Shown piece by piece: positions 36,860 to 38,785 of a DNA stretch of 64,000 nt. This stretch comes from Collinsella bouchesdurhonensis (GTDB taxonomy: Bacteria > Actinomycetota > Coriobacteriia > Coriobacteriales > Coriobacteriaceae): the NCBI RefSeq assembly GCF_900155365.1, contig NZ_LT699739.1, positions 118,333 to 182,332 of the forward strand, written 5' to 3'. The notes under the pieces were generated by a model. It was given only the letters and a program-made list of their open reading frames with translations. It did not search any database and was not told where the DNA came from. The stretch's first letter is position 1. Every line of letters begins with the position of its first letter. The translations under genes and the position numbers were made by a program.

Positions 36860-37146
36860 GGTATTCCTCGCAGTGTGTTTGGTAGTTATAGACAAAGGAA
36901 AGTTTACCGCAACTCGTGTCTCTTTACGGGCGTCTGACAAGCCTGTAAACATCATGGTTATGTTGGTTTTCAATCAGGTGATGTTGAGTATGGCGTGCAC
37001 ACACGGGCGCCGTCGCTGGCTAGCGCTCGTACTCGGGCGATGCGGGCGGGGTGCGGGATGCTTCCGGCGCTTTGCCGGTTGGAGGGGATGCCCGGATCGT
37101 GCCCCCTGGCGTGCTCTTCGTTACTTTTTGTGAAGGCAGTGGATTC

Positions 37147-37206
37147 ATGGTACAAAAGAGAGCAATGAACCAAAGGCGGGTTCCCAGCTCATGCTGCTAT
37201 GAGTGA
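37147..37206 (+). CDS. Candidate 19-codon leader peptide before the MFS pump
   Basis: ATG (37147) to TGA (37206) encodes a 19-residue peptide, MVQKRAMNQRRVPSSCCYE, too short for most gene finders. GAAGG lies 10 nt upstream. Its last 12 codons run through the 5' arm, loop and 3' arm of a terminator-like hairpin (37172-37219). A ribosome stalled in the peptide would break that hairpin. Short leader peptides of this kind control several drug-efflux and ribosome-protection genes. No expression evidence exists, and the peptide could be fortuitous. The rest of the 36860-37270 gap shows no clear gene. Confidence 0.4.
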   Translation: MVQKRAMNQRRVPSSCCYE

Positions 37207-37222
37207 GGGGCCTGCCTTTTTG
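37172..37222 (+). terminator. Attenuator-like terminator upstream of the MFS pump
   Basis: A long stem is formed by AAAGGC (37172-37177) with GCCTTT (37214-37219), G-G with C-C, CCC with GGG, and GCTCAT with ATGAGT around a six-base loop. A TTTTT run follows. It lies about 50 nt before the MFS start on the same strand, so it would end transcription before the pump unless disrupted. Confidence 0.65.
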
Positions 37223-37270
37223 TGTATTCGCTGCCGCTGTGCGGCTGTCGATCGATAGGAGATGCGAACG

Positions 37271-38785
37271 ATGGACAACGAGCGTTTGAATACAACGCCC
37301 GCAAAGGATGCTCGCAGCGAGGTCGCAAACGTGGATGCGTGCGGACTTTCTGTCGAAGAGCGACGCCGCATTGCCCTTGAGGGCGATACCCATGGCAAGA
37401 ACAAATGGGCGATTCTGTTTACCGTGCTGGTCATGACCTTCATGTCCACGCTTGATTCGAGCATTGTCAACGTGGCGCTTCCCGTGATGCAAAAGGCCCT
37501 TGCCGTAAGCCTGAGCGATATCCAGTGGGTCTCTACGGTCTATCTTGTGGCCATTTGTGCCTCGATGCTTATCTTTGGGCGCCTGGGCGATATGTTCGGC
37601 AAAGTCTGGCTCTTCCAAGCGGGCGTGGCGCTCTTTGCAATCGGCTCGCTTTTGTGCGGCCTTTCGCATGCATTTGCGATGCTGTTGGTTTCGCGCTGCG
37701 TGCAGGGCATCGGAGCTGCGGCGGCTATGGCAAATAACATGGGCATCATCACCGAGTCATTTCCCGCCAAGGAGCGCGGGCGTGCTTTGGGTCTGCTCGC
37801 GAGCTTTGTGGCCTTAGGGATGATGTGCGGCCCTGTGCTGGGCGGCGTGATCGTGTCGTCCTTGCCGTGGGAGTATATCTTCCTTATCAACGTGCCTGTG
37901 GGCGTTGCATGTTTCGTCGCGGGTTTCAAGACGCTACCGCATGTGCGTCCCGACCGCCGTGGTATCAAGTTCGATCTGCCTGGTGCCTGTGCGCTCGTGC
38001 CTGCGCTGGTTTTGCTGCTGTGCTCGATCACCTTTATGGGTGAGGGGGCTTCCCTCAAGATTGCAGGCATGCTGCTGGCCGGTCTGCTGCTCATGGCGTT
38101 GTTTGTTCGCATTGAGCTTCATGCGGAGCAGCCGCTTGCGCGCCTGGGCGTCTTTAGCAGCCTTACCTTCAACATCAACGTGCTCGCGACGCTCATCAGC
38201 TTTATCGCCATCGGTGCGAGCGAGATCATCCTGCCGTTTTATTTCCAGGATGCGCACGGATTCTCACCGAGTCTCTCCGGTTTTCTCTTTGCGGTGATTC
38301 CTCTGGTGAACATCGTGGTGGGGCCGCTTTCGGGTTCTTTATCCGATCGGGTGGGCTCGCATATTCCCACCTGTGTGGGCCTGTTTATCTACTCCCTTGG
38401 TCTTGCTGCGGTAGGGTTTCTCAACGAGGACAGCTCGCTTCCGGTGATTATTGCTGCCGTGGCGTTGATGTCTTTGGGCACCTCGACGTTTCAGTCGCCC
38501 AACAATTCGCTGTTCATGAGCGCGGCGCCTCTGGATGCCCTGGGTTTTGTAGGGAGCCTTTCCGGCCTTTCGCAAAACATGGGTATGGCTTTGGGCATCT
38601 CGGGCGGCATGGCGATTCTATACGGCAAGATGGGCGAGGCTGCGGGAAGGCCCGTGGCGGGCTATGTCGCGGGACGTCCGGACATTTTCTTCTACGGCTA
38701 CCGTTGGGCTCTCATGAGCGTCGCTGCCCTTGTGGCCGTGGGTTTTGTGCTGTGCCTGGTGCGTGCCCGTCGTGCGCGGCGCTAG
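37271..38785 (+). CDS. DHA2-family MFS multidrug efflux protein
   Basis: A 504-residue drug:proton antiporter of the major facilitator superfamily with about 14 spans. LDSSIVNVALPVMQKAL in the first span is the EmrB/QacA (DHA2) signature, GRLGDMFGKVWLFQ is motif A, and GLLASFVALGMMCGPVLGGVI is motif C, which marks antiporters. A 45-residue hydrophilic N-terminus precedes the first span. The ATG at 37271 has AGGAG at 37257-37261; the ATG at 37262 is too close to it. The substrate is unknown. Confidence 0.88.
   Translation: MDNERLNTTPAKDARSEVANVDACGLSVEERRRIALEGDTHGKNKWAILFTVLVMTFMSTLDSSIVNVALPVMQKALAVSLSDIQWVSTVYLVAICASMLIFGRLGDMFGKVWLFQAGVALFAIGSLLCGLSHAFAMLLVSRCVQGIGAAAAMANNMGIITESFPAKERGRALGLLASFVALGMMCGPVLGGVIVSSLPWEYIFLINVPVGVACFVAGFKTLPHVRPDRRGIKFDLPGACALVPALVLLLCSITFMGEGASLKIAGMLLAGLLLMALFVRIELHAEQPLARLGVFSSLTFNINVLATLISFIAIGASEIILPFYFQDAHGFSPSLSGFLFAVIPLVNIVVGPLSGSLSDRVGSHIPTCVGLFIYSLGLAAVGFLNEDSSLPVIIAAVALMSLGTSTFQSPNNSLFMSAAPLDALGFVGSLSGLSQNMGMALGISGGMAILYGKMGEAAGRPVAGYVAGRPDIFFYGYRWALMSVAALVAVGFVLCLVRARRARR

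Follow-up and report, generated by a model that had tools for sequence, protein, structure and literature searches.

Among described leaders, the guanidine-IV riboswitch (GGAM-1) is an ON switch in which the loop nucleotides of a Rho-independent terminator are highly conserved; it lacks a leader peptide and resides 5′ of exporter genes, Actinobacteria included (PMC7736828). The 'ABC-leaders' and other predicted attenuators of Naville and Gautheret (2010, PMC2965389) pair a conserved antiterminator with a terminator 5′ of exporters, and the cases include a multidrug export operon in lactobacilli. The attenuators of mef/mel, vmlR and msrD place a terminator between the promoter and a resistance or efflux gene, and use a translated leader.

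The leader described here, T1, precedes a drug efflux pump gene in the window, the whole 64-kb stretch of DNA that was analyzed. It resembles guanidine-IV in having a terminator with a conserved loop, no leader peptide and a position before exporter genes; however, guanidine-IV is built from two hairpins and a pseudoknot over about 95 nt, whereas the T1 leader spans about 59 nt (PMC7736828). No guanidine-IV hairpin pair was found by eye in T1. Rfam 15 gave no match at gathering score in the window leader, also none at E up to 5, a null result that is informative on this point only if Rfam 15 includes guanidine-IV. The best Rfam match, GA-cis (E 4.6), is located in the pump gene and was attributed to chance. 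T1 shares with the mef/mel, vmlR and msrD attenuators the terminator between promoter and efflux gene, but has no conserved reading frame where these use a translated leader. With the 'ABC-leaders' it shares a terminator and, putatively, an antiterminator before exporters; these belong to another transporter family and another lineage, and the main text describing them does not mention Collinsella (PMC2965389). No such element was found in the literature on Collinsella or Coriobacteri leaders, riboswitches and efflux attenuators, and T1 may figure unnamed among the 3161 candidates of Fremin and Bhatt (PMC8040213). T1 is in all likelihood a regulatory element, and we consider it probable that it acts as a transcription attenuator of the pump that requires no peptide.

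The pump, its terminator and a conserved core

The regulated gene (37262–38785, plus strand) encodes a DHA2/EmrB-like MFS efflux pump of 507 amino acids if translation starts at ATG 37262, or 504 from ATG 37271. The latter start is better spaced from AGGAG (37257–37261, plus strand), which is its likely ribosome binding site judging by this spacing. The protein matches TIGR00711 (MFS/DHA2 EmrB-like) at 214 bits, under the curated cut-off of 230. The proteins of solved structure that come closest to it in sequence are EmrB, EfpA and an antiseptic resistance protein, which we take to be QacA-type. The assignment as a DHA2 drug pump made in a sequence-only reading of this DNA is upheld at a sub-cut-off score. 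The leader sits between the pump and the divergent gene pfkA on the minus strand. On the other side, 18 nt 3′ of the pump stop, begins a small RF-1 domain protein (PF00472; 38804–39184). Among curated proteins it is most similar to release factors and ArfB, and it is possibly a ribosome-rescue factor. No RF-1-like ORF was apparent by eye 3′ of the pump in G216, a genome discussed below.

Folding and a scan for U-tailed hairpins identified an intrinsic terminator at 37173–37221 (plus strand), formed by a hairpin at 37173–37218 and a U-run at 37217–37221. At −29.3 kcal/mol, this hairpin is the most stable of the 17 single U-tailed hairpins of −18 kcal/mol or below on both strands of the 64 kb; a simple terminator scan of the window did not list it. 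The predicted leader RNA of ~59 nt, from the putative start site deduced from a −10-like box to the end of the U-run (37163–37221, plus strand), folds at −30.5 kcal/mol (z = −4.4), a value equalled by none of 200 shuffles. The leaders of two homologs, L008 and L009, fold barely better than shuffles (z −1.9 and −1.6). Another U-tailed hairpin, of lower stability (−19.0 kcal/mol), occupies 37077–37125 in the window, just 5′ of the −10-like box.

The conserved feature of the leader is a 25-nt core, GGTTCCCAGCTCANGCTGCTATGAG (37179–37203, plus strand), found in a single copy per genome and always before the pump. With three mismatches allowed, 5 of 43 genus genomes have a single match each, while a reversed control pattern had no matches in the same 43. 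Searching the DNA of these genomes with the leader returned four strong relatives. When a covariance model (R1) was applied to 395 order genomes, one more homolog came to light in G216, a member of another genus of the same family. The exact gapped core pattern is present in 6 of the 395 order genomes, one copy in each, and all six cores lie directly 5′ of an orthologous DHA2/EmrB-like pump. Among 396 genomes sampled from the phylum it was recovered twice, both times in genus members already known, and viral contigs gave no matches to the core pattern. The R1 model matched 17 of the 395 order genomes at E up to 0.1, six of which have the core. Ten R1 loci and one further site in the window's own genome were dismissed, upon reading their letters, as ordinary G+C-rich terminators that lack the core; they include L155 (G304, E 1.2e-5), judged by its letters alone, and L158, beside L157, was left out. 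The T1 set comprises six homologs from six species: the window, L006 to L009, and L177 of G216. The search for related loci covered 80 of 119 relatives.

T1 homologs are found in three gene contexts: the neighbor is pfkA in the window, whereas it is a methyltransferase-like ORF in L007 and a long repeat/LPXTG-like ORF in G216. L006, L008 and L009 were grouped with L007 solely on the basis of the letters 5′ of the leader. The upstream ORF in L006 to L009 is presumably methylguanine methyltransferase-like. The window pump is 57–65% identical in protein sequence to the other five, and 35–44% of four-fold sites are identical between them, where 32–34% would be expected at saturation. Across the same six loci, substitution is confined to a single position of the core, and L177 has in addition an insertion of 2 nt. 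Because the core is almost invariant while the four-fold sites of these distant pumps are near saturation, the comparison indicates that it is under strong purifying selection at the nucleotide level. Viewed as a candidate riboswitch aptamer, the core is nearly invariant, lacks covariation, and has all of its homologs before one pump family.

In the window, the terminator ends 40–49 nt before the pump start, depending on whether ATG 37262 or ATG 37271 is used. In L006 to L009 and L177, the distance from the U-run to the pump start is 14–28 nt and is taken up by the ribosome binding site. With no room left for a later promoter in five of the six loci, transcription has to pass the terminator to reach the pump. 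The sequence-only reading had described a strong terminator hairpin, a pump beginning about 50 nt further on, and premature termination before it; the first is confirmed by the rank of the hairpin among the 17 in the window, the second by the measured spacing, and the third is supported by the five loci in which no promoter fits.

A possible alternative stem in the nascent leader

An extended −10-like box, TGG-TACAAA, lies at 37148–37156 (plus strand) and was recognized by its resemblance to the consensus. Its aligned form is TGGTACAAA in four of the six leaders, TGGTAAAAA in one and TGGTATAAC in one, a pattern that resembles an extended −10 box. An automatic promoter scan of the window reported none at this position, and no −35 box is conserved across the leaders. 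Transcription would start at ~37163, about 7 nt past the box, which places the intrinsic terminator between this putative promoter and the pump gene. Further upstream in L006 to L009, ~60–75 nt 5′ of the core and beyond the −10-like box, is a conserved block (TTTTGCTGTGAAG, or CCYTGGTTTTGCTGTGAAG-like). The TTTTGCTGTGAAG block stands at a variable distance from the −10-like box and has merely a weak counterpart in the window; the CCYTGGTTTTGCTGTGAAG-like block of L006 to L009 is possibly an activator site or a part of the leader.

In all six leaders, the motif GAACC (37167–37171 in the window, plus strand) is found 5′ of an invariant GGUUC (37179–37183, plus strand) that also belongs to the 5′ arm of the terminator. 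The two can pair in every case to form an alternative stem, P1, a putative antiterminator that would block terminator formation. In the nascent RNA extending to TATGAG, the predicted probability of P1 is 0.99 in the window, 0.98 in L007, 0.99 in L006, 0.35 in L008, 1.00 in L009 and 0.96 in L177. Prefix folds concur for the window, L006, L007 and L009, with L008 as the exception. P1 in each single sequence appears only mildly better than chance, since GGUUC is also occluded in 20 to 191 of 1000 folds in which the upstream piece was shuffled.

The pattern of conservation in the terminator is one-sided. Its 5′ arm, CGGGUUCCCA, is invariant in all six leaders, while the 3′ arm drifts via G-U pairs and, in L177, carries a mismatch at the GGUUC arm. 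Such a pattern would be expected if another segment also paired with the 5′ arm; a bound factor would produce the same pattern. RNAalifold found no covariation in T1, with changes on both sides in 0 of 19 pairs, and the P1 pairs are invariant. In alignments A1, A4 and A5 the gaps around P1 are misplaced, and these three were excluded from the pair counts. Two other interactions were considered as well. A further helix, P2 (CAGC:GCUG), is unsupported in the window as part of an antiterminator (probability 0.04), and a kissing interaction of the terminator loop with an AUAGC close to the start site, considered by eye for L006 and L007, was dropped because neither L008 nor L177 has it.

The following sequence of events can be proposed. 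Transcription would begin just past the −10-like box, and within the first ~20 nt of RNA, GAACC could pair with GGUUC to form P1. As the RNA lengthens, the terminator hairpin would capture GGUUC, and polymerase would halt at the U-run, so that the pump would be off by default. A signal that stabilizes P1 or the conserved 'AGCUCAAGCUGCUAUGAG' segment would then permit read-through into the pump. Most simply, this signal might be a substrate of the pump bound by the RNA, and otherwise an RNA-binding protein.

The last option leads to the strongest alternative, that the core is not a ligand-binding RNA but is recognized by a protein, either an RNA-binding antiterminator or one that stabilizes the terminator. 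Protein-bound leader hairpins are known, and the leader is short (59 nt in the window), its apical terminator part almost invariant and its site single in each genome, all of which would suit a protein. However, no candidate for such a protein was found beside the element and the neighbors vary between loci; we regard this explanation as rather unlikely. That the hairpin is simply a terminator, there to insulate the pump or to end an upstream transcript and without any switching role, is less probable still. Any strong terminator would explain part of the picture, and in L006 to L009 the upstream gene, the presumed methylguanine methyltransferase-like ORF, runs in the same direction as the pump. 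Yet pfkA, the gene 5′ of the leader in the window, is divergent, the 14–28 nt between U-run and start codon in five of six loci imply that the pump is read through the terminator, and an invariant loop would not be needed.

The sequence-only reading had favored a leader peptide. The 19-codon frame on which it relied, ATG to TGA (37147–37206, plus strand), does exist, but its status as a gene does not hold. The ribosome binding site proposed for it is a weak GAAGG ~11 nt 5′ of the ATG, and this ATG overlaps the −10-like TGGTACAAA (37148–37156), which includes its TG. The window has 19 codons from this ATG, and the aligned ATG or GTG opens a frame of 4 codons in L007, over 100 in L006, 48 each in L008 and L009, and 2 in L177 (ATG GTA TAA). 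The six frames fall in three frames relative to the core, and in three of the six leaders no ATG, GTG or TTG occurs between the −10-like box and the core. No short ORF with a ribosome binding site over the antiterminator region is therefore conserved, the frame being lost in five of five relatives, and a conserved leader peptide was rejected; by this comparison the conserved feature is the RNA sequence and not a reading frame, and a peptide may be private to the window's species alone. That an antibiotic-stalled ribosome on this frame keeps the hairpin open, a logic well documented for mef/mel (PMC4335068) and vmlR (PMC9226507) and matched in the window by an ATG, the GAAGG and a stop inside the hairpin, is the least probable explanation, given the loss of the frame in the relatives and the start codon within the −10-like box.

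Other leaders on orthologous pumps

The upstream letters of 32 pump loci were compared, and leader types were labeled by eye. A second type, T2, was labeled in eight loci, with L186 as a ninth. In an alignment of eight T2 sequences (A3), the hairpin covers the ribosome binding site, with its 3′ part paired to that site, and 5 of 24 pairs covary, with changes on both sides. T2 looks like a translational switch. The corresponding covariance model (R2) detected T2 in 14 of the 395 order genomes, one copy each, and tblastn placed a pump after it in all 14 cases, one of them in another family (G073). T2 loci, just 5′ of the pump, are L010, L011, L178–L180, L182–L184, L186 and L193–L206. In L196, L199, L200 and L203 (genomes G034, G016, G017 and G205, respectively), T2 is kept and the pump is seemingly broken, as judged by split or partial tblastn matches.

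Two further types make a weaker case than T2. T3 is represented by L002, L003 and L004, 5′ of the pump (about 1380–1530 in L002), with CCGCGGGAACGATAGCGCGG conserved in all three and AGAGCGCGCGGCGCCA in L002 and L003. T4, from the Collinsella aerofaciens group, consists of a GGGRCCCC... stem and a U-run directly 5′ of the ribosome binding site, and lies 5′ of the pump in L018, L019, L022, L023, L026, L028, L030, L035, L037, L098 and L103; at T4 pumps, an upstream gene in the same direction precedes the terminator. Rfam had no match for the 12 T1–T4 loci tested.

A pump tree of 45 rows relates these leaders to one another; L031 was dropped as a duplicate of L002, stops were masked in L049 (one) and L066 (two), and L186 is unlabeled though it is T2. 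T2 and T4 each form one clade, and T3 one weakly supported clade (82/46). T1 is found in two clades, the window with G216 and L006 to L009, with T3 and L005 between them. From this arrangement, T1 would either be ancestral and have been replaced or have moved together with the pump.

It is tempting to suppose that one orthologous Coriobacteriaceae pump is under several unrelated RNA switches (T1, T2 and possibly T3 and T4), all sensing the same pump substrate, although we consider this doubtful. If orthologous pumps do have two or more unrelated conserved leaders, RNA regulators would have been replaced repeatedly, an unusual case. If the proposal is true, nature would have supplied several independent RNA sensors of the same exported compound, through which the natural substrate of a DHA2 pump from gut bacteria could be identified. 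For T1 itself, the attenuator reading, if true, would mean that an RNA switch absent from the catalogues sets how much of a drug-efflux pump is made in common gut Actinobacteria, a control exerted with neither a leader peptide nor an adjoining regulator gene, and its trigger, once found, would name the pump's natural substrate.
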